A stretch of 64,000 bases of DNA, taken from Siphonodentalium dalli. Taxonomy: Eukaryota; Mollusca; Scaphopoda; Gadilida; Siphonodentaliidae. The position numbers and the translations under genes were made by a program. The notes under the pieces were generated by a model that was given only the letters and a program-made list of their open reading frames with translations, had not been told where the DNA came from and did not search any database. Of the stretch, positions 3,711-55,400 are shown piece after piece. Where the stretch lies: positions 92,000,707 to 92,064,706 of the forward strand of contig CP136067.1 of the NCBI GenBank assembly GCA_032622095.1, given 5' to 3'. Every line of letters begins with the position of its first letter. The first letter of the stretch is position 1.

Positions 3711-3840
3711 CTTCTAAGTTATCAAGGTTATTGTTTCTCAAGATTAACGTCTTAATGTTGCGTCGAGATGAGAGAGAGAATTGAGGAACTCTGTCAAGCA
3801 AATTAAAGCCAAGATTCACTCGCTGTATGTTCGTCAGGTA
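3711..3840 (-). CDS. STK11IP: STK11IP exon 6
   Basis: Acceptor GTTTTTTCAG|TAC and donor GAAG|GTCAGT bound 43 codons plus one base. The translation is YLTNIQRVNLGFNLLDRVPQ, then FSLSSRRNIKTLILRNNN and LDNLE: two leucine-rich repeats with LGFN and LRNNN turns. No exon 7 was found to the left (1-3710), so the gene continues outside the window. Confidence 0.85.
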
Positions 3841-6800: not shown

Positions 6801-9800
6801 CATGACTTTCGGAAATATTTAAAGGCACATATTGTGTTGGGACTATATCTTTCTTTAGGCACCGTTCAACTTAACAGCAAGACGAAGCAGTGATATTAGT
6901 TTCTTCCTTGAAATATATTTGACCGAAAATTTGCTTTCTTTAGCTAAAATAATGGTGATAAAACAATAGACTATTTTGTTTCCGTCAGAATAACATTCAA
7001 AATCCCGTACTAAAGCAGCTAAAGTGTTTGATGGTGTGTAGTAAGTATATCAGGTTTGCAGAATCAAAGTTCCAAACAATATGTGTAACTTTAATTATTT
7101 TATGTTCAGAGTTTACCATAAACAGTATAATTAATAAATTAACCATATTGAAACTGTATTGTAAATATTGGTTCGACAGCTATCTGGAAAATACACAACG
7201 CTCGCTGTTTTTGCTTTTCGGACAGTGTTGTGATGTGTTTAATCAAACAGGTGTATCTATTGCAGTTATCGTAGAATATGATTGGTCAAATTATAATGAT
7301 CAGTGTAACACTAAATTGGATAGATTTCTTTCGCTCGGGTACCGGGTATAATTCATTTTGTTGTGTGCTATATTCAGAGTCACTGTTTATGTCGGGTGTA
7401 TTTTTGAGTCTGCAAATATTGGGGTTTCAGTCTATTATTTTATTTTTAAGGCATTTCGAAGTGTCATCCACTGGTTATCGAAGTCATAATTCATGTTACA
7501 TTTTGCATTGTATCTCTCGCATTCATACCTAAATTGAAGATCGCAAAGGAATGAGCAAAGCGACAGTTGTGTTGGCGTGAATTTTGTCCTGTATATATAC
7601 TGTTTCATCACTAACAGGAAGAGGTTGCTTATTGACTTTCTGTATTCGTGATCTATACCGATAATAATATTCTTCTTTGTTAGATCAATGGGAAACTGGT
7701 TGTTTTCCTTCCATATTTCAATTTCCTTTATAAAGGTTTGTACATGGGGACAGTCCCAAAAGATATGAGAAATTGTTTCCTGTAAATTTTGACACCGATT
7801 GCAGAAGTCGTCGACTCGAAGGTTAGCCAACTTCAGAAATTTATTGGTACCGATAATTCGCGTGTTTATTCTGAATTGGAGCCACTGTAATTTCGTATCG
7901 GTTGTCGTTTTAAAGGGCATGCTCAAATATTCTTCCCAATTTTCTATCTTCTCGGAAATTTCGGATTCCCATTTTTGACATGAATTTGGCATAATTTTCT
8001 CACTTTCTAGCACTTTATAAAATAATTGTCCGCCCTTTTTGTCACGGAGTATCGCAGTAAGATTATTAGGTAGGTATGGGCAGGGTATACGGATTAATGG
8101 TTGATTAAGAGAACTTGCCATTGACATAATCTGACGTTTTATGTTGCTGATAGTTATGAAATCGACGCGGATGTTGAAATTTGCATATAATGTGTGTGGG
8201 GTATGGAATGTATAATCTGATTGGAATAAATCGTTTATAAAATATATTCCCGCATCTCTCCACGATTTAAAGTTGATTGATGAACCTCCAATTTTTATGT
8301 TCGGATTATTCCAGATAGTCGAAGCCATAATAGTATTATTTGAATTATTTAATCGCATAAATTTACACCATGCACCGAAAACATCTCTCCAGAATGGATT
8401 TGCGAACTTGTTTGTTTGCTTTGAAATATAACTTGAATGGTACGTGAGAAATAGTTGGTCGTTTAAGAAGGATGTAGTGTTACACAATGAAGCCTATTTT
8501 GATTGTTTGCAAACCAAGCGTCGTATCCAGGTAATTTTCATGGCATTATCAAAGTTTTCAACATTAATCATCTTCAAACCTCCGTGCATATGATCGGCAC
8601 ATAATTGTTTTCTTTTTATTCGATCGCGTTTGGAATTCCAAATGAAATTATATAAACAGGTATTTAGGGCTTTAAAAAAAGTTGTACCTGGACTTGGTAG
8701 AGTTATAAATAGGTGTGTCAATTTCGGTAAGATGAGGGATTTGACAACGGTTATTCTACCTAAAGGGGTCAGGAGTCTGTGTTTCCAAATTTTTGTGGTC
8801 TTTTCTATATCTTCGAGTTTATAATTGTAGTTTATATTCATGTTTGTTAAATCAGTGTCGAAGTGTATACCTAGAAAATTGAAAGTGTTTACAGTGGACA
8901 GGTTTAAATCTATAAGAACATGCCGTATTTTATTTGGTGACCCTATCCCTATCCATGCTGATTGACATTTTTCAGGATTTATGCGCAGACCCGATACCCG
9001 AGCAAATTCGTCAAGTGTTAAGTACGATTCACGTAGACTTTTTTCAGAACCATCAAGAATGAGCGTCGTGTCGTCCGCATATTGTGTTATTTTGTACTCT
9101 GAACCGCCGAGGATAATCCCTTTAATTGTATTGTTTTGGCGTATCATTAGCCCCAAGACTTCTGCGCAGATGAGAAAAATATACGGTGATATTGGGTCAC
9201 CCTGGCGGCAGCCTCTCCCTAACAAAAAGCTCTGAGAAATATGACCATTAATCAGAATAGATGAGCTGGCATTATCGTACAAAATTGATAGCCACTTCTT
9301 TATGGTATCTCCAAAATTAAAAAGGTCAAGACATTTTCTTATAAATGACCAGGAAACAGTGTCAAACGCTTTTTCAAAATCGATAAGGAGTAGTAGACCA
9401 GATTTATTTTCTTGCTTTGTCCTGTGAATTATGTCATATATTAATCGGGTGTTGTCTCCTATATACCTACCAGCTAAAAACCCAGTTTGATCGGGATTGA
9501 TTATAGATGAGAGCACACGTTTTATTCTGTTCGCTATACATGACAAGGCTAGTTTGTAAGATGTATTCAAAAGGGAGATGGGACGCCAGTTTTTTAGCAT
9601 CTTTCTATTTTTATCCTTTTTTGGAATCAGAAGTTATAATACCTTGCTTTTGTGTGGTGTTAGTAACCTATTCACAACTGGGACTACTTGTTATAAAACC
9701 CTAAATATAGAACTCCGACATCATATCGATTTCCGGGAAATAGGCCAAAGCACTATTTCAAAAACAGAAATGAAGTCACTGTGTATAAATACCACCATAG

Positions 9801-12800
9801 ATCTATATAAATAGCAAATTGCTTATTATGCAATAGGTTACTAAAATCAAATGGTATAAAATAAAAATCAAATAATTTAACCCTGTCAGTGCCAAGTCTT
9901 ATTTTTGTATCAACCCATATTTCCTTGATCATTTTTATGTTTACCCATACCATAGTATGGTAAACATAATGTCGACGTCCGGATTGACCACTCGTCGTGC
10001 GTCCGTCAGTCCGTCTGTCTGTCTGTCTGTCCGTAGACAGAGTTTATATGAGTTTCTCAGACCAAAATACAGATCGAGTTCAAATATGGGTTTGATCTGA
10101 GTTTTATGGAGTTATGGCCCTTTTTCGACTTCAAATTCATGCATGCTGTCATAACTCAAACAATTTTTATCTGATCGGAACCAAATTTGGTATGCGAGTT
10201 TCAGAGCCCAAAATACAGATTGAGTTCGAATATGGGTTTGATCCGATTTATTTTAAAGGAGTTATGACCCTTTTTTCGAAAAAAAAATTGAAAAAAAAAA
10301 ATCCGATGCTATAACCGAAGTATATTTTGTCCGATTGTGTTCATATTTGATATGTAGGTTTATGATGACACGCCCCTCATCTGTATAGTTTTTGGTATTG
10401 ATTGGTTGATCGGTTTAGAAAATAATTAACCCTTTACACACATGCTATCCAATGCAATAAGTTGAACATATTTCTTCTGATCTGCCTCATATTTCTTACC
10501 TAGGTTTTTCTTAGCACGTTCTTCATCTGTATGGTTTTTGGTATTGTTTAATTAACCCTTTTCACTCTTATGTTTACTTAGAATTCACCCAAGCTGCTAT
10601 GACTCAAAACATTTTTCATCTGATCAACACCAAATTTGGTATATGAATTTATCACCCCTAAATACAGATCGAGTTCAAATATGGGTTTGATCCAATATAT
10701 TTTAACAGAGTTATGACCCTTTATAATTCAAGTAATTACTGCTGGGAATTTTAAGAGAACATATCTCACAGACCATGTGTGTTTAATGAAATGAGTTAAT
10801 TATCACTATGGACATAAGATGTGACATGCTATAAAGCCTGATAGTGGTACTGCTGGCTGGCAGGATTTTTTTATCATAATGTGAAATTGATTGATGGCTA
10901 TCTAGTGGAGTTCTGTTCTCTGTAAGTTAATTAGTCCATTGTTACTTTGTAGGGGATGTTTTACAGACATTGTTGTTTACATACACTGTTGTCTTATCTT
11001 AGACAAAAATTAATCCACACATTCCTCAGTTCCATGATATGATTTCATTGCAAATGATGAACCCTCTCCACAAATCATATGGTTTTGATGCTTTTCATTT
11101 GATCATTCTCCTATATTATGTCCAGGTTGATGGTGTTCCACTTTTGATTTGCATGGATTTGGGATTAAAATTAAACCATTCCATAGACACATATTATGCG
11201 ATAGACAGAAATAATATTATCCCTTTCACTTTGATCCAGGTTCAGTAAGGGTTTCAATAAATCACCAATTGTATATTCATCAATGGAGGAAATGTCTTAT
11301 TTTGAAATTCCCTCAATTGCATTTGGGCTCCAGGGTAATATTAATGGTGCTGGTATTCTTGAGACTGACTTATTGTATGGGTTTCTAAATCCAATGACAT
11401 GCTTTGTATAGACTATTTTGTGTTTATCAGTTCATTAGTTTGGGTAAGATTAACCCTATTCTATCCGATTTGATAACTCAAATATTTCCATTGGTTATGT
11501 TTATACATGTAGTTCTTGGCATAGTTGACGAGAACACACCCCTAACCTGCATAGTGAGGGTCATTTGGTTTATTTGCTTAAAAATATTAACATCCTCCGC
11601 CAATCCTGTTGACACAATGTGATAACTAAATATTTTTCACATAATCACTATATTAAGTGTGAATTGTTGAAACTTAGGATTTATAAAAATAGCTAATCGC
11701 CAAGGTATGGGTTAAACATCTGCCGATCGTGATCGGCCTCTCGTTCAAATTTATTGATTATAATAATGTGATACATTGATGGAAAGAGCTCTTTGCTATT
11801 TCCATCAATGTATCACATTATTATAATCAATAAATTTGAAAAATGATCAAGGAAATATGGTTTGATACAAAAATGGGACTCGGCACTGAAAGGGTTAATA
11901 AATTTTAAGTCCTTCGCTTCCTCTTTGTCTCAGTAAGATAGGTACCTGCAGAAAGTTCTCTGTTCTTTTAATGAAGTTATGACTCAATTCGATCACTTCA
12001 AGGACACTCACAAGTCGCTGAAAAAAACAAAATTATCTTCATGAGTCAATTAAATGGAATCAAGACCGTCAAAGAAGGTTCATGCAAAATAACATAAAAG
12101 TCTCTATAATCATCATTATCATGAAGAATATGAAGAAATATATATACACAGTAATGCTCTAAGTAATTGACTCCTTAACCAGAGCGGAATTATGGGTAAC
12201 TTTTCAGGATTTAGTCGGAAATTCTCTGGGAGAGCTTTCCGATGAATGGCAACAAGCCATATTTCCGACTAAATCCTGAAAAGTTACCCAATATTCTGCT
12301 GTGGTTAAGAAGTCGATTACTTAGAGCATTACTGTACTTTGTTCTTATTTTCATTATCAATAATCCTGTAATGAACATTATTTGGCCCTTTTAACCCTTA
12401 TAAAAATATACATTGGAATAGTCTATTATTCATCTGGAGGGGTTTACTGGAAAAAAAAGCAGATGGCAGCTCATGCAAGTGCAGAAATTTATCTAATTAT
12501 TGGAGAAAAATGTTGCGATAATAAGTTAAAAAAGCAGTCGTATGTTGAACTTATTATCTGAAAATCAATGAGTATTTAGGGTTAATACGGGAACTACTCA
12601 TCCATGAGTATTTAGTATAGAAATGGTTAATAAGGGAACTACTCATCAATGAGTATTTAGTGAAGCAGAGACCAGCTCAGAAGTTTCAAATTAGGAGAAG
12701 TCACTTCTCCCTGTTTGGTTATTAGGGAGAAGTAATCTGTAGTCAGGGATAACTAACAACGGCTGAAGTTCAATTTACACCCCAACATCACCCTTCTGTG

Positions 12801-15800
12801 ATCTAATAAAATGTCAGCAGACCACAGTGTCCCCCGAAAAAGTGGCAAGTCGATGCACACTATTTGCAGACTTCCAGACTGCGCCTGCATGTGAATGTTG
12901 TTATGGGTAACCCGTACAAGACTGTAGCTTCTTGAAATTTTGCCAAAACCATGTGCCAATACATTCTCTTATATATGCGAGTCTGCCATAGGGAGCCTTG
13001 CATATATAAGAGAATACATTCGCCTAACAATATTCACCTTGACTTTGTAAGCCAATGCAAGAGAATGCACTGGCAAAGGATATTTAATGCTGCACTAGCG
13101 CAGGTCCCATCATGAAAGGGTTGAAGAAGCAGCATTTCAGTCATGGCCAACACATTGTTTCACTGGGCCTGCATCTTGACACTTACCAGTGACTCATCTA
13201 GGGAGTGTATGTTATAATCTATATCTATATTTGCGAATGTCTGTCTGTCTGTCTGTCTGTGTTCTATAGAAATTCACAGGGGACCATCTAGATGATGCCA
13301 AAGGGGTCTACTAGGAGTAGCTTTTTACGAGAAAGATAATGGTCGGGGTTAGAATTTTCTAAAGTGACGCCGTTGTTGTCAGGGGCAGAAAAGGGGGAGG
13401 GGCAGAAAAAAAAATTGTCGCCGGTGGCCACCAAACTTATATATAATGATCCCCATGATATGAGGAATCTAATGGTGTGGTTTAAATATGGCAAAAGTCG
13501 CGCCGTTCGCGTCAGGGGTGCCCGGAAGGGGGAGGGCAGATTTTGTTCTGTCGCCGATTTCCACCAAACTTATAATCATCCCCATGATATGAAAAAACCA
13601 ACGATGTGGTTTAAAAGTGGCGTCGTTCGAGTCAGGGATGCACGGAAGGGGAGAGGGGCACCAAAATTGAAAAACTAATTTTAGCGCCGATCTCCACCAA
13701 ATTGATATATATTCTTCTTCATTATATAAGGAATCTAATTGTGCGATTTAACAACGCCAAACCCATGATATGAAAAAAACAACGGTGATGAATCAAATTG
13801 TGCGCTTTAACAACGCCAAATTGTTGTATTTTGGTTGAGAGATTGGGAGGGGTGGGCACTAAATTTGATAATAATTGGTTTAGTCGCCGATTGCCACCAC
13901 ACTTATACAAAATCATCCCCATGGTATGAGGAGTCTAATGGTGTTGCGTATATCTGTCAAATGTGGCCTCATTCGAGTCAGGGTTGCATTGAAAGGGACA
14001 GGGGCACCAAAATTGATGCACAAATTTTTTGCGCCAATATCCACCGAATTGATACACGTTCTTATCCAAGATATGAGGAATCTAATCGTGTGATTTAAAG
14101 ACGCCATAGTGGTGCTGTTTATTTGAGAGATGGGGGTGTAGATTGGCACCAAATTTGATAAAAAAAATTTGTTTAGTCGCCGATTATCACCAAACTGATA
14201 AGCAATCATCTCCATGATATCAGGAGTATAATCGTGTGGTTTAAGGATGTCATAAGTTGGGCCATTCGAGTCAGTGGTGTATAGAGATGAGAGGGACACA
14301 GCAAATTATATCTATATGTTTAGTGCCGATTTCCACCAAATTGATACATATTCTTCTCTGTGATACACCAAATTTGTGCCCTATGGGTGAGAGATATGGG
14401 GACCTTAAATTTGATACGAATTTGTATACTCGCCAATTTTCACCAAATTCATATATAAGCATCTCTAATCTCTAATGAGTCTTAGTGTGTGCAGCTTGAG
14501 ACTGAAATAGGGACGGGAGGGTCACCAAGACTGATACAAAATATTTTTAGTACTAATTACCATCAAATTCAGACACGTTCTTCTCAAATGATACAAGAAA
14601 TCAAATCGTGCTGTCTGTCTGTCTGTCTTTCTGCGTTCTATATATAACTTCACGCGGTACAATAGAGATGGCACCAAGGCGTTCTAAGAGGGGTAACTGT
14701 TTACAAGGAAGATAACGGAGCGGGTAAAAAATTTCTAAAATGACGCTGTTGGTGTCAGGGGAAGAAAAGGGGGAGGTCGGCAAAATTTAAAATATAGCGT
14801 GAAATAGTTTTGTCGCCGATTTCCACCAAACGAATACATAATCACTTTCGCAATATGGCGTTGTTCGAATCAGCGTTGCATCAAAAATTGATTTAATAAA
14901 CTATTTTTAGCCCAGATTTCCACCAAATTGATATATTATTCTTCTCTATGATACGAGGAATATCATCGTGTGATTTAAAGACGTCAAATTGGTGTCGGTT
15001 GGGTGAGAGATATGGGTCATAACTATTCTCAGAATTTGTTTAGTCGCTGATTACCACCAAACATATATATAACCATCGCCAGTATATCATGCATCCATGA
15101 GTCTAATGGAAGTGGTTTAAATATGTAAAAACAGGCAAACGCTGGAAAAATTTTATTTGGCTCGAATTTCCATCGAATTCATACACGTTTTTCTCTAATG
15201 ATATACCATGAATTAAATCACATTTGGTGTCGTTTGCGTCGCGGATGGCGAGCGGATATGCACTTTCATTGATAAGATTGCTATTCGCCTTTATCGACAT
15301 ATAAGTTATATACAGTCACCCAGGCCATCTCCATATCATTTTAAGTAGTTTTGGACGTTCACATTTCACAATCCCGACATATATGGTGACCCACTTTAGT
15401 CACTTGAACAATTATATCTTCTTAACTGTCATATTTATATGGGAATAGCAATCAGGGCATTCACAAAATGAGCTAGCAAAAAGAGATACATAGAAGAAGC
15501 ATTAAACGTATATTTATCATTCTATTGAAGAGATACATATATTCGTGCAAACTGAGAGACCCCGAACCGTCAGAGGATTGCATATATATTATAACAAAAT
15601 TGAGTCTGTTCCATTCAATACAGTTTCCACAAAAAAGTTACAATTTGTCAAGAGATATGGAAGGCCTGTTCAAAAATAGTGGTCACTGTGTGCAGTCAAA
15701 TATAGTTTCTTCTGATATACAAGAAAATGCAGTTAGTAGCATAAGACTTTTCAGGATCCTCCCAATACTGCACATCTGACAAGGGTTTTATAACAGACTC

Positions 15801-18800
15801 CTCGACTGACATAAACTACTCAAAATCTCGCTCTGTGCCTGGCACATGTAGCTAATATTTATGCGCATCAACATGTCGTTTAAACAGAGAATATTTAGCC
15901 AATATATAGCACCATGAACAGAGGAGCACCTGGAAATTTCTTAGAAACATCTGTATCTTCATGGAGATAGCCGGGTGTCCTCGAGAACTTAGTCCAACCC
16001 ACTAAATTGATTGATACATCTTAATATTTAAAACCCAATTATCATCTTTTATCGAACTAATGTGTTTGTGATGTTCATGTATCATATTATAACGTCTAAT
16101 GTATACGCAGTTGTAAATAAATACATACTTCATTATTGTTGGAACAGATTAATCGCGACAAACAGAATGACACTTGACAAGGTGAGCCACTACTTATATC
16201 CCAATGACTGTAATAATCATGTTTTATGATGCTATTTGAATATACAATTTATGAGAAAAGTATAACACTTTTAAGCAAGAGCATTCTCTATCCCCAACAA
16301 ATATCCACAGCATACAGAGGGTTTATCATCGCATTAACCTGGGCAATGCCGGGTAACCCTGCTAGTAGTTAATAAAGGAGGACCATTTTAGACATGGCCA
16401 ACACATCGGTTCACTGGGCCTGCACTTAACACTTACCAGTGACTCATCTAGTAGACCGGGTTGTGGCTGAGGTAGGTGTCACCCGGAGATGGCGAAATTC
16501 CCATGTTGATTTTCTATTTCTGGATACCATTCTACATCAAAATTTCTGAGGTGTATGGGGCAAAGCCCAGAACTTTTTTTTAAATGGTCAAAATCATGTC
16601 AAATTGCTTGAAAATGGCTATATTCTAAAAAATCAATCTATGATAGTTAAAATTGTGATAAATGAAACGAAACATCCACCTAACTGACCTCAATTAGTCT
16701 ACTTATCATGAGCAAAAAGAAATATCACAAAAGGATAGACGTATTTTGAAAAAAATTCAAATTTGTAATTTTTTGGCCTGTATTTGACGAAATTTCAATT
16801 TTTCGTCCAGCGAAAAATGGTCATAACTTAAAAATCGTTCTTTAAATCACGACCAAATGAGCTTTAAAAACAGCTCACATCATTTGTGCTACTATCTAAT
16901 GAGAAATAATTACCATTTATTTTATATGTTTCCTTATATTCATGATATTGTTACCCCTATAGGGAGTGTAAGCTTTTATACTGAATCAAGGAGCACCATT
17001 TTAGACGCGACCAACACATCGGTTCACAAGGCCTGCATCTTAACACTTACCAGTGACTCATCAAGGGAGTGTATGTTGTTATAGTTAAAGGAGCACCATT
17101 TTAGACATGGCCAACACATCGGTTCACATTTATCTCCACCACATGATTCGAGAACATCCTGAAACAAACCAAGGAAAAATAGAACATATGACAGTTTATG
17201 CACCACTCACTGCCCAATAAATGTTTAATGTATTATGTCAAAGTAGCTTGATAAGGTCAAGGTAGCTTTATTAGGTAGGTAATAGCGTGCCTGTCATTTG
17301 CAGAATGAGGTCCCCAGAGGGTGAATTTAGTGATGTTACCCCACATAGCGGGCTAGCATCACCAAATTCACCCTCTGGGAACCTCATTCTGCTGAGGTGT
17401 AAGCAGAATGAGGTCCCCAGAGGGTGAATTTGGTGATGCTAGCCCGCTATGATTCGGGGTAGCATCACTAAATTCACCCTCTGGGGACCTCATTCTGCAA
17501 ATGACAGGCACGCTATTTCAAGGCTTGTTTTCACCCATTAGTCAGCTCGATTATGCATTTTATCTTCTGTAAATTAGGGGATATTGAAACTTCCCAGCAG
17601 GGGAAAAGTAACTAAAACAATGTTAATTTGAGACTATAGATACTTCCCAGAAGATGGGCCTAAGCAGAATCAGGTCCCCAGAGGGTGAATTTGGTGATGC
17701 AAGCCAGCTGTGCAGGATAGCATCACTAAATTCACCCTCTGGGGACCTCATTCTCCAAATGACAGACACACTATTTGCAGGATTGGTATCATAGAGTGAC
17801 TGCAAACATTGATCATTTTCGTAGCAGCCTTGTCCATACCTTGTCCATAACGGTATATGTTGACTAAGGCCAAAACAAAACACCTCTCTGTTTACGATAA
17901 CATTGGGATAATTTTTCAGAAAGGCAGGCAGGGATTTCTTTTTTTAACAATTTATTTTTTAAACCTTTCAGTTGTAAGCGATATAATATTTTAGTCATGG
18001 TCCCATGGAGTATGGTACATCAATGTGTATTGAAACGAGCCAAGCATTGGATAAAAACATGCTGTCCCTTGAATTCATTCACTCTACAGTAAGATCTCTA
18101 CAAAGTTGAGCTTAATAACCGACTTATTTTTGGTTTTTGGATTGGGAAATATGATAAATATTCACATTGTCACTAACAGGCTACAATAGACTAGCCTTCT
18201 GGAAAAAATTGAAAAAGAAATTGAGGCAGGCAAGAAAATTTCGGCCAGGGTATCGAAAACAAAGAGGTTTTTTTGGGCCTAACCTGTATATTCTGTAGGC
18301 ATCTGGTGACAATCAGTGTGATGAGCTGTGGTCTCTGGTGCTTCAAACCCTCCAGCATGTGAATGGGTACCTTCTTTATCTCCAAACATTGGAGAAGCCT
18401 GAACCGCGACAATTGTATCGGTGACTGAATTGTACAAGAACCATGAATAATCTGAAATAGAGGAGACATATATCAATTCATTATATGCTTGCCTATAAAT
18501 TAGCTAAAAATTACCAACATAAATCATTGTATGGATCTGTTTCTCCATCAGTCTGTTTGTAATTTTTCTCTCCGACGCCTGGAGCAATTTCAAAAAAATT
18601 TGGTGTGGTGACTCGGGGTACCCCAGTGGATGTTATGACAATGTTAGTTATTTAAAAAGAAATTATTACAATTTTTTTTAAATCAACAAGTCAAAATGTT
18701 TAAAGTGATGTGAAGCACTCCAGTAGGGTGATCAAACAGAAATGGAGAATAATTTTGCTAAATTATATGCGATTCTTTAGATCCTCATCCTCATTTCAGA

Positions 18801-21800
18801 ACTCACGTGTACATAATTATTTGAAGGCCGCGAGTTCAACATACCTTCAATGCTATAGTTTTAATGACGAAATCGTGGACGAATTGAACATTCCGTTTCC
18901 AGTGTTCGACATAAAGTTCTTGACGAGCAAGCCGCCTCCTCTCAGAGAAGCTCATTTCCGTATCCGTCTCCAACTCGCTATAACGCCGAAAGCTTTGATT
19001 TAGAACACTCAAACCCTGGGTCGTTAGGCAGAATTTGCTTTTCCCGCTGAGTATTCGCTCTCCTGAATAAACAACAAAATTAAAATAAACATTTCTAATT
19101 CAGTTCTAGAAGTATACTTTAAAGATTTGATTAAGCGCACCCCAAATTCCAATTACAAATTATTTGGATTCAGGGGTAAAAAATATAACTTTCCAGAATC
19201 CATACCTGATCGACCCTGAGAAAGAGGCAACCCGACTGACCCCAAGACAGCCCGAGCCAGAGACAACCCGATCAACCCTGAGACAGCCCAAGCCAGTGAC
19301 AGCTCGAGACAGTGACAACCCGACCCGATCGACCCCGAGACAGCCCGACCCAGAGACAACCAAATGGGATCGACTCTGAGACAGCCCGAACCAGTGACAA
19401 CCCGACCCGATCAACCCAGAGACAAAATTTTTTTTTAGAAACATTAATGTTTTGTTTAACCCTTTACCCAACAAAACGGCCAAAACCGCCCAAATAAAGC
19501 TTCAACAGCCTAAAATATCTTCGGTCTGTCTCAATATATGTAACACCATACAAATATGGATATCATTGGAACCGGTTCATTGACCACATTGTGATGGTTA
19601 CAGTTATGCCCTGTGCCAATGCATTCTCTTATATATGCGAGTCGACCATAGGTCGCCTCGCATATATAAGAGAATGCATTGGCCTAAAAAAACACTTTTT
19701 ACCACTTTTTCTTACATTCTTTAACAATTTAAAAAAAAAATCTTACATTTTTTAACAATTTTTATAATATTTTTCTACATTCTTTGACAATTTTATCATT
19801 TTTAATATGTGTTAAGCCAATGCATTCTCTTATATATACGAGGCGACCTATGGTCGACTCGCATATATAAGAGAATGCATTGGCACAGGGTCGTTCTGTT
19901 GGGTAAAGGGTCAACAGAAAATAATAAGATCAGGCCTACATGTGTGAGCCTATTCAAAAGATCACCGATGATAAAGAGCATTCATGATTTTATTGTCCAT
20001 TAACAGTGAATATCATTATACTATTTCCGACTAAATCCTGAAATGTTACCCATAATTATGCTGTGGTTAAGGGGTCGATTACTTAGGGCATTACTGTACC
20101 TCATCCAAAGAGAGTCATTTATTCGTGTTCTGATAAGAAAGAAACATTTGTTTTAACCCTTTCATGACGGCATCTGTACTGATGCAGCATTAAATATTCT
20201 GTGACAGTGTATTCTTTTATAGGGAGCCTCGCATATATAACAGAATGCATGGCTTACAAGGTCAAGATAAATATTGTTAGGCCAATTTGTTGTATTCTGT
20301 TATATAAAGCAGCCCTCTTAATTCAGATTGTTTGGTTTCGGCAATCCGCTACGACAACCCTTTGCCGTGGCCCAGTTTGCTTCAGCAAATGGCCTCGGCA
20401 TTGCTGATTGCCATAGCAAATTATGAGGGCTGTATAAATGCAAAACCTGAAACCTGGGACATGCTTCCTTTTTCTACTATGACATTCCTTTAGAACTGCA
20501 TTAAATTCTATGATGGCTTCATAGCTTTTTCTACAGCATTGCCTTTTGCTGCAGCTATTTCAAGGGTTGGGGATGTAAAGATAACATAAGCATACAACTG
20601 CAAACACCCAAATGATTCACATTCAATTGTAAGCCTTGAAATAGTGTGTCTGTCTTTGGCAGAATGAAGTCCCCAGAGGGTGAATTTAGTTATGCTATCC
20701 TAAGCAGGCTAACATCACCATATTCACCCTCTGAGAACCTCATTCTGCTGAAGCCTCAACTACTATGGGAGACCTGTATGTAGGATAAGATTCCCCAGTT
20801 GAAATTGGTGATGTTCACTCATTAGTCACCTCGATTATAGTTTTATCTTCTGCAAATTAGGGGATATAGAAACTGAACAGAAAGGGAAAATGTAAATAAA
20901 AACAATGTTAATTTGAGACTATAGATTAGAGCCCGAAGCAGCCATCGCACACCGCCACCGCGTTGGCGAGCCATATTATCTGTAACGCCAGCCACATGAA
21001 AAAATCTCCGTCGCTGAAAATGTAAAATGGCTGAGCCATGTGCATGGGCTTATATGTCAAGCACAATGTTCAGTACTGTGAATCGCAAGAACTAAATCGC
21101 ATTGCCTATATTTTGGCATACTCGCATGGATACTACTTGGTTGTTAACGTACATGTATATTATCAGAACACCCGGGCTATGTTGAATAGACTATTCCATT
21201 GCATGCTTTCAAATAACTGAATGGGAGCATCCATTCAGTATTGAAGGTGTTAAAGTATAGATTATTTATTTCGACACGACTCAGTCTCAGACATCATTGA
21301 CATTTGTCAATATATGCACATAACCTGTGGCAGAGAATAGAAAATAGTTTGAAATATTATATCATTACTATCGGATTCATCATTCAATGATACATGCATA
21401 TATCGCAAGATGCCAGTGATGATAGCAGTCTGAAGTCGACAGAAGTCGTCATGTAACTCATACCGATTAGATGGGAAACTACATATAGTACATCCATGCC
21501 AGTCCTTCGTGTAATTTCGCCATAATGGAAAATCCCAACATAAAAATAGCACATGTGGTCTGCAATTCTACCGGTTCACCACAAACGCTAAAACAAACGG
21601 GGTTTACATATAACCGGGAATAAGTAAAATTTTGGAATGAAAATACACTGAATGTCGTCGGCCACGAACGTCGCTACTGAGCCGGCTTAGCTAGCTAACC
21701 AGCCACAAAATTGGTTGAGCCAGCCGCGAAAACAATGGATACCACCAGGAGATGAGGCCTATGCAGAATGAGGTGCCAAGAGGGTGAATTTAGTGATGCT

Positions 21801-30926: not shown

Positions 30927-31508
30927 CAGTAATGCCCTAAATAATCGACTCCTTAACCCTTTACCCAACAAACCGACCAAAACCGGCCAAATAAAGCTTC
31001 AACAGCCTAAAATATCTTCGGTCTGTCTCAATAGAACCATACAAATATGGATATCATTGGAACCGGCTCCTTGACAACATTGTGATAGTTACAGTTATGC
31101 CCTGTGCCAATGCATTCTCTTATATATGCGAGTCGACCATAGGTCGCCTCGCATATATAAGAGAATGCATTGGCCTAAAAAAATCTTTTTTTTAACACTT
31201 TTTACCATTTTTTCCTACATTCTTTAACAATTTTATAATTTTTAATGTGTTAAGCCAATGCATTCTCTTATATATGCGAGGCGACCTATGGTCGACTCGC
31301 ATATATAAGAGAATGCATTGGCACAGGGCCGTTCTGTTGGGTAAAGGGTTAACCAGAGCCGAATTATGGGTACTTTTTCAGGATTTATTCGGAAATATGG
31401 CTTATTGCCATTCATCGGAAAGCTCTCACCATATTTCCGACTAAATCCTGAACAATTACCCATAATTCTGGTCTGGTTAAGGAGTCAATTATTGAGGGCA
31501 TTACATTC
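30927..31508. mobile_element. Mariner-type MITE, copy split by a TTAA element
   Basis: The left end CAGTAATGCCCTAAATAATC...CTCCTTAA stops at 30956. The element resumes at 31349 with TTAACC-AGAGCCGAATTATGGG and continues to GAGGGCATTA. Without the insertion it matches the copies at 12149 and 32704. Confidence 0.8.
30957..31348. mobile_element. piggyBac-type MITE with two inverted 69-bp hairpins, copy 2
   Basis: Same family as 19460-19910: CCCTTTACCCAACA / TGTTGGGTAAAGGG ends and perfect TTAA duplication (30953-30956, 31349-31352). Hairpins are at 31106-31174 and 31254-31322, mutually inverted. It is shorter than copy 1 because the central T/A spacer is reduced. The inside sequence is highly similar to copy 1, implying fairly recent activity. 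Confidence 0.88.
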
Positions 31509-32400: not shown

Positions 32401-32703
32401 GGGAAGGCGCTCCGAACCATATTTAGACAATTGTGACATGTTAGAGCCCATCGTGTGTTTGGTCATGTAAACAAAATATTACGTGACAATAACCTTTGTA
32501 TATCTGGCAAAAATAATTGCTGAAATCATTCGAGAGGTCTGGGAGAAAAATCGCGAACAAACAAACTGACATATATATCACTTTCTGCGAACCCTTTGGT
32601 TGAAATAGTTTCTTGGATCTATGAGGAAAATCATGAACAGAGAGACGGACATACATCCTACAGATTCCTACTCTTTTGCATGTATCGATATAAATGACAA
32701 GTA

Positions 32704-32953
32704 CAGTAATGCTCTAAATAATCGGCTCCTTGACCACAGCAGAATTATGGGTAACTTTTCAGGATTTAACCACAGTAGAATTATGCATGGGTAATTTTTC
32801 AGGATTTAGTGTGAAATATGGCTTGTTGCCATTCACCGGAAAGCTCTCAGTGAGACCTTTCCGATGAATGGCAACAAGCCATATTTCCGACTAAATCCTG
32901 AAAAATTACCCATAATTCTGCTGTGGTTAAGGAGTCGATTACTTAGGGCATTA
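32704..32953. mobile_element. Mariner-type foldback MITE, copy 4
   Basis: It starts CAGTAATGCTCTAAATAATC after TA (32702-32703) and ends TACTTAGGGCATTA. It contains an internal partial duplication (AACCACAG.AGAATTATG, TTTCAGGATTTA) in the left arm. Confidence 0.75.
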
Positions 32954-34584: not shown

Positions 34585-35778
34585 AGGATAAGATTTAAGT
34601 TCCCCAGTTGAAGTTGGTGATATTCACCCATTGGGCACCTCATTTATAAATTTTATCTTCTGCAAATTAGGGGATATAGAAACTTCCTAGAACGGAAATT
34701 TAACTAACAACAATGAAATTTGATACTATAGATACTTCCCAGAAGATGAGGCCTAAGCAGAATGAGGTCTCCAGAGGGTGAATTTGGTGATGCTAGCCCG
34801 CTGTGCGGGATAGCATCACAAAAAGCGTGTCTGTTCCTACATTGTGCACGCCTGGCCTCAAGCAACACAATGTATTATACAATCAAGCCTTGAAATAGTG
34901 TGATAGTGTGTCTGTCATTTGCAGAATGAGGTCCCCAGAGGGTGAATTTAGTGACGCTATCCCACACAGCGGGCTAGCATCACTAAGTTTACCCTCTGTG
35001 GACCTCATTCTGATAAGGCCCTCAACTGCTATGGAAGACCTAGAATAAGATTGAAGTTCCTCAGTTGAAGTTGGTGATGTTCACCCATTGGGCACCTCAA
35101 TTATGAATTTTATCTTCTGCAAATTAGGGGATATAGAAACTTCCTAGAAGGGAAATTTAACTAACAACAATGTAAATTTGATACTATAGATACTTCCCAG
35201 AAGATGAGGCCTAAGCAGAATGAGGTCCCCAGAGGGTGAATTTGGTGATGCTAGCCCACTGTGCGGGATAGCATCACAAAAAGCGTGTCTGTTCCTACAT
35301 TCTGCATGCCTGGCCTCAACCAACACAATGTATTATACAATCAAGCCTTGAAATAGTGTGATAGTGTGTCTGTCATTTGCATAATGAGGTCCCCAGAGGG
35401 TGAATTTAGTGACGCTATCGCACACAGCGGGCTAGCATCACTAAATTCACCCTCTGGGGACCTCATTCTGATACGGCACTCAACTGCTATGGAAGACCTA
35501 GAATAAGATTGAAGTTCCCCAGTTGAAGTTGGTGATGTTCACCCATTGGGCACCTTAATTATGAATTTTATCTTCTGCAAATTAGGGGATATAGAAACTT
35601 CCTAGAAGGGAAATGTAACTAACAACAATGTTAATTTGATACTATAGATACTTCCCAGAAGATGAGGCCTAAGCAGAATGAGGTCTCCAGAGGGTGAATT
35701 TGGTGATGCTAGGCCGCTGTGCGGGATAGCATCACTAAATTCACCCTCTGGGAGCCTCATTCTGCAAATGACATTAGT
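34585..35778. mobile_element. AGAATGAGG-family MITEs amplified as a 458-bp tandem array
   Basis: One partial and two full units. CAACACAATGTATTATACAA recurs exactly 458 bp apart (34863 and 35321). Each unit holds hairpin, spacer (AAATTAGGGGATATAGAAAC) and hairpin of the family seen at 17287, 20633 and 23006. The array ends by reverting to the normal element end (CATTCTGCAAATGACA). Confidence 0.85.
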
Positions 35779-40199: not shown

Positions 40200-43100
40200 A
40201 GCAGTGGGCGGCTTAAAATTGTACCGACCATCAGTCGCAAACGCGCTGATGCTGCAAGTGTTTTCCTACTTCTCTTACTCGCAGGAGACAAACCTGGGGC
40301 ATAAAAGAGCAGATACCTACCCTGTGGCTATTGTGAGACCCAAGTAACATGGGAAAATGGTGGAGCCTGCTGCGATACATATGCCATCTGGTATCACAAA
40401 GAGTGCCTAGGCTACAACACACAGGACATGGGTAGACTTAGCAAGAGCTATGTATCTTGGCACTGCTACAAATGGGATAACATCAATGTGTCTTCATTTT
40501 CCTACAATCTATATGACACCGACGCCAGCACCAACTACTATGAACCACTTTCAAGACTGAACAGCACGTTAGAATCAATATCATCCAACTTCAGCCCTAT
40601 GAGAGCAAGTAGTCCACGATGGAACAGTGAGCATTGGAAATCTCAAAGAAACACAACTTCTATGACCTCAACATCTGAAATACCATCTTGTCAAGTATTT
40701 GAGATACCCAAGAAGACGAATCTGAGATTACTGACGATGAATTGTCGCAGCATCAAAGACAAGACCCAAGAATTGGCTGCAGCAATTGAGTACATCAAAC
40801 CGGATATTGCATGTGGCACAGAGTCGTGGCTGAGTGGCATAAAACCAGGTAAACCACCAGAACTGCAATCAAGAACAGCGAAATGTTTCCAGTGAACTAC
40901 TCATTGTACTGAAATGACAGGTCGAGCAACCACATCTAACAACAGAGAATGAAATAGTGTGGACCAAACTAAAACTCCAGAACAACAAAGAGCTCATGGT
41001 TGGTTGCTGTTACATGCCACATCGATCCGAGAAGACAGCAGATGAGTTATCAAAATCCATCAAGAAAATCAAGGATAACCACTACAAGGAAGTTCTGCTA
41101 GCCGGAGACTTCAACTGTCCCGACATAAACTGGGATATTCCAAATGCGCCAACAGATTGTCCCGACTACAACATACAGAATAACCCAATCGAGACTATGA
41201 CTAAATGCCAGCTCACCCAAATACACAGAGATGCTACGAGAGAGAATATGCTTGATCTGGTATTCACATCAAACCCCACACCTGTCAAGTCATCTGCAAG
41301 TGTACCAGGCATATCAGAACATGCAATGATTCTCACTGATATAGAAGTAAAACCCCACTACCTACACACACCACCTAGGAAGTGCTATATCTTCAGCAAG
41401 GCATCACGAGGAGATCTACGGTATGAAGCCTCTCTAGCATCTGCAAACATCTACCACGAGAAGAGCCAAGGTAGGAATGTAAACGAGCTATGGAATATAT
41501 TTAAAGACAACATCAATGCCTCCATGGAGAAACATATTCCATCAAAAACAATCCAGTTCAGAAAAAAACCTCCTTGGCTGACGACCAAAGAAAAACGAAT
41601 ACTTCGAAAAAGAGCACGTCTGTACAAAAAAGCAAGGAAAACAAATAAATGGGACCAGTACAGATCATACCAAAAAGAATGCAAGAAACAACTTAGAAAA
41701 ACTGAATGAGATTACACCAACACAATGATACAAGATTCGTTAGATAAAAGGGACACCAAACCATTCTGGCGCTATATTAAACCCAAGAAGAAAGACTCAA
41801 TTGGAGTAGCGCCCCTCCTCTCTAAGGGAAAACTGGTAAACGATAGTCAGGAGAAAGCGGAAATTTTGGTGAACCAATTTCAATCTGTGTTTACCAAGGA
41901 CAAGACAGGCCCAGTAAACACAACGAACAAGCACAGTCCAAATACCATCAAATCACTGAAAATCAATCGGGATGGAGTGACAAAGCTCCTAAAGGAGATA
42001 AACCCCGGAAAGGCATCCGGTCCTGACGATCTACCCAACCGTGTCTTGAAAGAATGTGCAGAGGAACTGAGTCCTGGACTAACAGCCATCTTCCAGCTCT
42101 CCATCGACACTGGAATGCTACCAAATGACTGGAGAAACGCCAACATCTCTTCTGTCTTAAAAAAAGGAGACAAACATCAACCAGAGAACTACAGGCCAGT
42201 GTCATTAACATCAGTATCATGCAAAATCCTCGAACACATAATATGCAAGTACATCATGAAACATCTAGAAGAAAATAAAGTCCTCACCCACCTCAACCAT
42301 GGATTTCGATCAGGACATTCATGTGAAACACAGCTGCTGACAACAACCAACGACCTTCTAAAAAACTTCAATGCCAGCAAACAAACAGATCTGATAATAA
42401 TACTGGACTTTTCAAAGGCATTTGATACAGTTCCACACAACAAGCTGCCATAAAAACTGGAATAATACGGTATAAGAGGGCAACTGCATACATGGCTAAC
42501 ATCCTTCCTCACCAAAAGAACAATGAAAGTAGTGCTTGAAGGCCACAGTTCAACCGAGGTAGACGTGGACTCCGGAGTGCCGCATGGAACACTATTGGGG
42601 CCTCTCCTGTTCCTTTGCCATATTAATGACTTACCAGATACAGTGTCATCAACAGTACGACTCTTCGCAGACGACTGTCTGTTATACAGACAAGTCAACA
42701 CCATTAAAGACAAGGTCATACTCCAACATGACCTAAAGAGCCTTGAGATATGGGCAAAAAACTGGGGTATGACATTCAACGCCAAAAAATGCTACGTGAT
42801 GAGCCTAAAAGGAAAACTCAGCAAATACTACACGCTGGATGGCGAAATACTCAGCCAGGTCGACACCAACCCATATATTGGTATCCAGATCTCGAAGGAC
42901 TTGAAATGGACAGCACAAGTGAACAACACGGCCACGAAAGCTAGCGCCACACTCGGCTTTCTCAGAAGAAATCTGAAGTTTATGCCAGAAAAATCCAAGA
43001 GAACTGCCTACATAGCATTAGCAAGATCAATAATTGACTATGGAGCTGTAATATGGGACCCCTACCAGCAGAAAAATATAGATCTCCTTGAAAAGATTCA

Positions 43101-43233
43101 ACGAAAGGCAGCAAGATTCATCACTGGAGACTACAGGTCAAGAGAAAAGGGCAACATGACGAGAATGTTGAAAGAACAACAATTACCAACACTTCATGCT
43201 CGTCGAAAAACACAGCGCTTGATCTATCTGTAA
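40200..43233 (+). pseudogene. LINE ORF2: PHD finger, AP endonuclease, reverse transcriptase
   Basis: A leucine-rich lead (VFLLLLLAGDKPGA, 40256-40300), a stop, and then a PHD-like finger YLPCGYCETQV...WYHKECLG...SWHCY (40314-40467) whose last Cys is Trp. Endonuclease motifs follow: MNCRSIKDK, AGDFNCPDINW (41102-41134) and GISEHAMI. A frameshift with apparent loss of about 60 bp removes the segment between FPVNYS and IVLK. RT: KASGPDDLPN, LKKGDKHQPENYRPVSLTS, DFSKAFDTVPH, SGVPHGTLLGPL and the catalytic FADD (42667-42678). Stops at 41707, 42451 and 42463. Confidence 0.85.
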
Positions 43234-49717: not shown

Positions 49718-49854
49718 CAGTAATGCCGTCAGTAATCAACTCCACAACCGAGAGCTTTCCGATGAATGGCAACAAGCCATATTTCCGACTAAATCCTGAA
49801 AAGTTACTCATAATTCTGCTGTGGTTATGGAGTCGATTACTTAGGGCATTACTG
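49718..49854. mobile_element. Mariner-type MITE, internally deleted copy
   Basis: CAGTAATGCCGTCAGTAATC at the left and TTACTTAGGGCATTACTG at the right are flanked by TA on both sides (49716-49717, 49855-49856). Most of the left arm is lost. Confidence 0.8.
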
Positions 49855-50826
49855 TATGTATGTGGTTACCATGTAGACATATCAAAGTATGTTTCAATTG
49901 GGAGCCAACTGTCAGAAAATAGGACTGAACCCCAAAATTGGGTTCTGGCCCCTAAAATAGGAATTCAGCCATTTTTATACTAATAATGAACGGGGCCAAT
50001 GACTAAAAATTACTCACTATCAAGCATAATCTTGTCTCAAATTCCGCAATGAGCCTCATAGCGAAATCCTAAGTACAAATATGGGACCAAATATGTTCTT
50101 TATTATATCAATGTGTGCCAACAAGACCAAAGTAATTTTTTTTAAACTAAACAAAGGCTGAAAATACGTTTTCTGAATGTAACGCAAGTCTTAAAAATTG
50201 AAGATTGGGGATTATTTGAAAATACAGTGTGAATGACTCGATTCATAACTCATTTCCATTATAATTACCATGTTGTTGTACATAAAGTAGATGAGTGTAT
50301 TTTGCACTCATCCATGGCTCAAATTCATTCATTTGTTGCATATATTCTGTTGAGTATAATAGGAGATGGTCCCATATGGCTGGGTTTAATGTACTGTATA
50401 AACCATTAAAGTTAGCACATTACCCCGCTTCGAATTCAACAATACCAATAGCCGTGAAAACATTGTCCATTTATTACAAATCCAAAATGAGTGGCAGCAT
50501 ATCAATTAAATTAGGATGTTTGAGAGAATTACACAAATATTCTCAACACCAGTCTGAAGTTTCATTGTTAGTTTCCAAGTTTCAGGTTTGTTGTCGAAAC
50601 AACTATCAACATATCAATAAGTCAACATAAAACTGGAAAAATGCAAGCAACTTAATTGTTTACATCACATTAATTCCCAATTCAACTAATGTTTTTGTTG
50701 CGTATTGGTAAGATTGTGTGGGATGAAGGGAAATCTAGCTCACAATCATGTATTCTCCACTGAGATGTAATGCTCCCCTCCCACCCCACGACAATAATAA
50801 TTATATAAACAAATTAAAAAACAAAT
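49855..50826. other. No recognised feature
   Basis: Intergenic-looking AT-rich DNA downstream of the PAN-like gene. An open frame at 50295-50630 has no recognisable domain. Confidence 0.35.
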
Positions 50827-54849: not shown

Positions 54850-55400
54850 CATCACTTAAATAAGCAGATACACCCTCACACACCTCCTAGCGCCATCATT
54901 TAAACAAGCAGCCACACCATCACACCCCTCCTAGCGCCATCACTTAAATAAGCAGATACACCATCACACCCCTCCTAGCACCATCACTTAAACAAACAGA
55001 TACACCCTCACACCCCTCCTAGCACCATCACTTAAACAAACAGATACACCCTCACACCCCTCCTAGCCACATCACTTAAATAAGCAGATACATCATCACA
55101 CTCCCCCTAGCGCCATCACTTAAACAAACAGATACACCCTCACACCCCTCCTAGCACCATCACTTAAATAAGCAGATACACGCTCACACCCCTCCTAGCG
55201 CCATCACTTAAATAAGCAGATACACCCTCACACCCCTCCTAGCGCCATCACTTGAATAAGCAGATACACCCTCACACCCCTCCTAGCGCCATCACTTGAA
55301 TAAGCAGATACACCCTCACATCCCTATTAGCGCGTCACTTAATCAAGCAGCTATACATGTACCTTCACACCCCTCCTAGACCATCACTTAAATAAAAATG
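54850..55400. repeat. 44-bp minisatellite, about 12 units
   Basis: The unit is GCGCCATCACTTAAATAAGC, AGATACACCCTCACACCCCT, CCTA. Variants differ mostly at AAATAAGC/AAACAAAC and at CCCTC/CCATC. Period and units are very regular. Confidence 0.95.

Follow-up and report, generated by a model that had tools for sequence, protein, structure and literature searches.

How did stretches of exon 4 of a leucine-rich repeat (LRR) gene come to lie inside the intron that follows it, and do they matter to splicing of the gene? The question is raised by a 64,000-nucleotide stretch of the genome of the scaphopod mollusc Siphonodentalium dalli (contig CP136067.1, positions 92,000,707 to 92,064,706; referred to below as the window; GC content 38%). 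Three exons of the gene frame the problem:

11946..12017, minus strand: exon 5, 72 nt, with a CAG acceptor and a CAG/GTACC donor.
17051..17158, minus strand: exon 4 of the STK11IP-like LRR gene, placed by splice sites and frame; it is 108 nt long and begins and ends in phase 0.
18284..18451, minus strand: exon 3, 168 nt, with a CAG acceptor and a CAG/GTTAGG donor.

All three exons are in phase 0 at 5' and 3' ends alike, and another minus-strand exon with good splice sites runs from position 3840 downwards. Exon 4, as implied by the initial annotation, is borne out from 17158 to 17051 by its TTTCAG acceptor, its GTAAGTG donor, and its reading frame. The translation of joined exons 3–6 consists of leucine-rich repeats and matches LRR proteins, the best solved relative being nischarin (E 4.1e-10, with seven residues from the intron preceding exon 3 included in the query). 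Pfam matches to LRR_8 and LRR_4 were both below cut-offs, the exon 4 peptide alone produced no Pfam match, and a search of the whole window against Rfam at gathering thresholds produced none. In a comparison with a fragment of human STK11IP, 57 of 144 positions were identical and a CGGD stretch was shared; the paralogue nischarin gave 48 of 159. The gene is provisionally taken as STK11IP-like, on the strength of this comparison with the human fragment. A literature search pairing STK11IP with mollusc returned nothing.

Other repeats also lie in the window. The intron that separates exons 5 and 6 contains, at 7435–9633 and in minus orientation, a LINE-like reverse transcriptase (RVT_1, E 1.9e-40, with zf-RVT just below cut-off), and a second LINE-like element with endonuclease and reverse transcriptase matches in the two open segments searched lies on the plus strand at 40428–43233. 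Nested inverted and tandem repeats are found at 17281–17775, in intron 3 near the exon 4 acceptor; a 458-bp tandem array at 34588–35739 looks, by eye, related to them. An inverted repeat at 12148–12335, whose arms are 92% complementary, has relatives at 20022–20099, 31349–31504, 32699–32953, and 49750–49861, and a minisatellite with a 44-bp unit (12.3 copies) spans 54850–55395.

The sequence repeated downstream in the intron spans an exon–intron boundary, with 77 nt from the 3' end of exon 4 on one side and the adjoining 23 nt of intron on the other. When 16950–17160 was compared by blastn with the window, it matched 13124–13213 (85.6%, E 5.8e-25) and 16371–16451 (89.0%, E 5.8e-25), and, at E 3.4e-15, 16373–16414 (97.6%) as well as 16961–17028 against 17064–17128 (83.8%). 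These matches had been described in the initial annotation as three blocks that repeat the 3' half of exon 4 together with the start of its intron. The blocks are not separate: when two insertions, at 13218–16365 and 16452–16959, are excised, a single contiguous array of 3.4 copies remains, with a unit length of 103–104 bp according to Tandem Repeats Finder and steps of 100, 102, and 103 bp in the joined-array alignment. Copy coordinates derived from the offsets of that alignment are as follows:

17028..17127, minus strand: copy 1, with 77 nt from the 3' end of exon 4 and 23 nt from the intron.
16963..17027, minus strand: copy 2, head part.
16415..16451, minus strand: copy 2, tail part, carrying a decoy donor whose GT begins at 16436.
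16366..16414, minus strand: copy 3, head part.
13164..13217, minus strand: copy 3, tail part, carrying a decoy donor whose GT begins at 13186.
13122..13163, minus strand: copy 4, a 42-nt fragment.

The segment 16366–16451 is therefore composed of the copy 2 tail and the copy 3 head, and beyond exon 4 itself the array holds two whole extra copies and one 42-nt fragment. The similarity, on which the earlier reading depended, is far above chance: the best match of 17029–17135 to the rest of the intron on the sense strand scored 78.8 bits, and the highest score among 200 dinucleotide shuffles was 25.6. It is very unlikely that the repetition is an assembly artefact in which haplotypes were joined. 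Joined haplotypes would be expected to show long, nearly identical repeated flanks, whereas the units are ~102 bp long, copies 1–3 differ from each other by 7 to 12% and contain different insertions, and all matches of 16950–17160 (E up to 0.1) fall within the array.

The larger of the two insertions interrupts copy 3 and has the features listed below:

13218..16365, plus strand: Helitron-like element, TC...CTAG, 3148 bp, inserted between A and T with no target duplication.
16337..16354, plus strand: imperfect palindrome of 18 nt, with a 6-bp stem (one T-G pair) and a 6-nt loop, its last base 11 nt from the CTAG terminus.

The element starts with TCTATATC at 13218 and ends with CTAG at 16365, and these limits fall where the register of the array requires. 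They match the 3.15-kb Helitron of the initial annotation, which had placed it in the sequence GTTA/TAGTT; that sequence belongs to exon 4, and the interrupted copy reads ATAA/TAGTT. Across this junction copy 3 aligns to copy 2 without a gap. An uninterrupted counterpart does lie nearby, as had been claimed, although exon 4 is not the best one. Copy 2 has the same length as copy 3, with nothing inserted at the Helitron position, and provides the best empty site; exon 4 lacks a 3-bp insertion at this position and is thus the second-best empty site.

Canonical Helitrons, as described in PMC4067079, have a 5' TC and a 3' CTRR, insert between A and T without target duplication, and carry a palindrome of 16–20 nt ~11 bp from the 3' end; autonomous members encode a Rep/helicase protein, and multiple genomic copies occur. 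The element shares with this description the TC, the CTAG, the A/T site, and the absence of a target duplication. The fold of its 3' hairpin was no stronger than that of shuffled sequences (z −0.65), and with 15 nt of host DNA included the fold changed (z 0.70). Inside, the element consists of decayed repeats with no long open frame, the longest open segment being 130 aa. Nine segments of at least 70 aa (five on the minus strand and four on the plus strand) were searched against Pfam, and a single match, below cut-off and unrelated, was obtained. With no Rep/helicase found among these nine segments, the element fits a non-autonomous Helitron only. A search of the window with the two Helitron ends turned up no further copy of either. 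A second copy of the Helitron head (76.9%), by eye without the terminal TCTATATC, lies inside the element at 14612–14793 and may be an internal duplication or a nested relative. Patterns of the Helitron ends had no exact match in scans of viral contigs; a looser 3'-end pattern, which matched 11 times where 4.1 were expected and just once exactly, was set aside.

Related classes described in the same account share some of these features. Helentrons and HINEs likewise make no target duplication but prefer TT targets, whereas the element sits between A and T; proto-Helentrons share the CTAG end and the A/T site but start with TT, where the element starts with TC. Its layout is similar to that of oyster Helitrons as presented in PMC8268682, in which a microsatellite is followed by short satellite arrays. 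A GTCT microsatellite near the 5' end and internal tandem repeats are common to both, but the repeats here are decayed and irregular, and the likeness is one of layout.

The initial annotation had recognised the Helitron as an insertion into one of its blocks; a second insertion, in copy 2, was absent from it:

16452..16959, strand not assigned: insertion of 508 bp that splits copy 2, flanked by TAG at 16449–16451 and 16960–16962.

Its empty site is CATCTAGGGAG in copy 3. Inspected by eye, the two ends of the insertion have only TAG/CTA in common and form no convincing inverted repeat, and 16456–16955 used as a query had no other match in the window. PIF/Harbinger elements, as described in PMC2213677, carry terminal inverted repeats and duplicate 3 bp of the target. 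The TAG flanks fit this class, but the ends, which by eye have only TAG/CTA in common, do not.

Both insertions sit within copies of the array, and both therefore postdate the duplication. The order put forward in the initial annotation, duplication first and Helitron second, agrees with this result, since with the element excised copy 3 aligns to copy 2 and no gap remains at the junction. At its far end the array adjoins another repeat:

12949..13125, strand not assigned: dispersed repeat containing a hairpin, which adjoins copy 4 where that copy ends; relatives of the repeat occur in the window.

Local matches of this dispersed repeat stop at 13122, 13125, and 13125 in three aligned places, and copy 4 stops at 13122. 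The insertion of the repeat probably cut the array at copy 4, the remainder of which was not found in the window.

The relationships among the copies bear on how the array grew. Identities are 88/99 between copies 1 and 2, 93/100 between copies 1 and 3, and 90/102 between copies 2 and 3; over its 42 nt, copy 4 is identical at 35 positions with copy 1, 32 with copy 2, and 34 with copy 3. Copies 2 and 3 have in common a 3-bp insertion (with two of its three bases alike) that is absent from exon 4, and agree with each other at columns 67, 101, and 102, where copy 1 differs. Nischarin aligns gaplessly to the exon 4 repeat from W onward, and the shorter form seen in exon 4 is therefore probably ancestral. 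The shared insertion and the three columns suggest that copies 2 and 3 go back to a single extra copy that appeared first and was later amplified. Against this reading, among variable columns, eight unite copy 1 with copy 3 and five unite copy 2 with copy 3; the excess of the former may reflect private change in copy 2, constraint on copy 1, or conversion between copies.

Copies 2 and 3 each retain a decoy donor, CTG/GTAAGTG, that equals the real donor over the nine nucleotides scored. The initial annotation was correct that GTAAGTG donors are kept; its coordinates, 16437 and 13187, are one base before the G of GT, which is at 16436 and 13186. Only 4 of the 254 GT sites scored in the intron reach 8/9 agreement with MAG/GTRAGT, namely the real donor, the two decoys, and an unrelated site at 13037. 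From either decoy, the predicted extension reads DESL-VSVKMQAL and then stops; decoy use would add eight codons, the ninth being a stop. Both features would favour a reading in which the three like 5' splice sites compete in cis and the decoys are sometimes used as alternative 5' splice sites that extend exon 4, in which case the early-stop transcripts would be degraded and expression of the gene tuned to a lower output. As judged from sequence, such a role is very unlikely: the decoys lie 614 and 3864 nt past the real donor, no excess conservation is seen, no pyrimidine-rich acceptor is visible by eye directly before copies 2 and 3, and the CAG present there is in the wrong phase. Reed and Maniatis reportedly engineered duplicated splice sites in 1986, and donor proximity is said to have been a factor in the choice. 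Their constructs reportedly placed identical donors in like exon context in cis, as is the case here, but the donors of the present array are natural and stand hundreds to thousands of nucleotides apart.

The reading frames of copies 2 and 3 could be taken as a sign that the array is what is left of exons once used alternatively (in a mutually exclusive way): they are open up to the donor, and the 3-bp insertion is in frame. We consider this highly improbable. The copies have neither the exon 4 acceptor nor its 5' 31 nt, and the first 39 nt of exon 4 have no other match in the window below E 0.3. Moreover, chance alone predicts the open frames: simulations gave an open frame with a probability of 0.57 (copy 2) and 0.76 (copy 3), and, with a factor of one third for an in-frame insertion, the joint chance is still ~0.15. 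The longest invariant run across the three copies, 20 bp, was also within chance (p 0.26), so that neither the open frames nor this run gives a sign of selection on the copies. The copies are probably functionless, a readable record of genome decay.

The likeliest explanation, and one in which we place high confidence, is a neutral tandem duplication of part of an exon that was afterwards interrupted by transposons, an event ordinary in kind. In this scenario, a segment starting within exon 4 and reaching 23 nt into its intron would have been duplicated in tandem there. One extra copy would then have acquired 3 bp and been amplified, which would account for the two complete additional copies and the partial third. 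The gene probably never depended on the additional copies, since the acceptor, the 5' exon portion, and the proximal donor are all retained with copy 1. Splicing presumably went on from copy 1, and the other copies may have drifted as neutral landing sites, with the Helitron-like element entering copy 3 between A and T, the 508-bp element entering copy 2 with its TAG repeat, and the dispersed repeat coming to adjoin the cut end of copy 4. Overall, the observation of the initial annotation is confirmed and sharpened, and its interpretation is supported.

Duplication of exon sequence together with splice signals has been described as a route to new introns (Lehmann et al. 2010, PMC2891723). Both that route and the present case involve exon sequence copied locally in tandem along with a splice signal; there the duplicate, which includes a proto-splice site, gives rise to a new intron, whereas here an existing intron was lengthened and supplied with spare donors. 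No general view is changed by the case. It is instructive in that an array of known register serves as an internal ruler, giving the limits of insertions and their relative order without a second genome, and it offers a natural test of how the spliceosome chooses among like donors.
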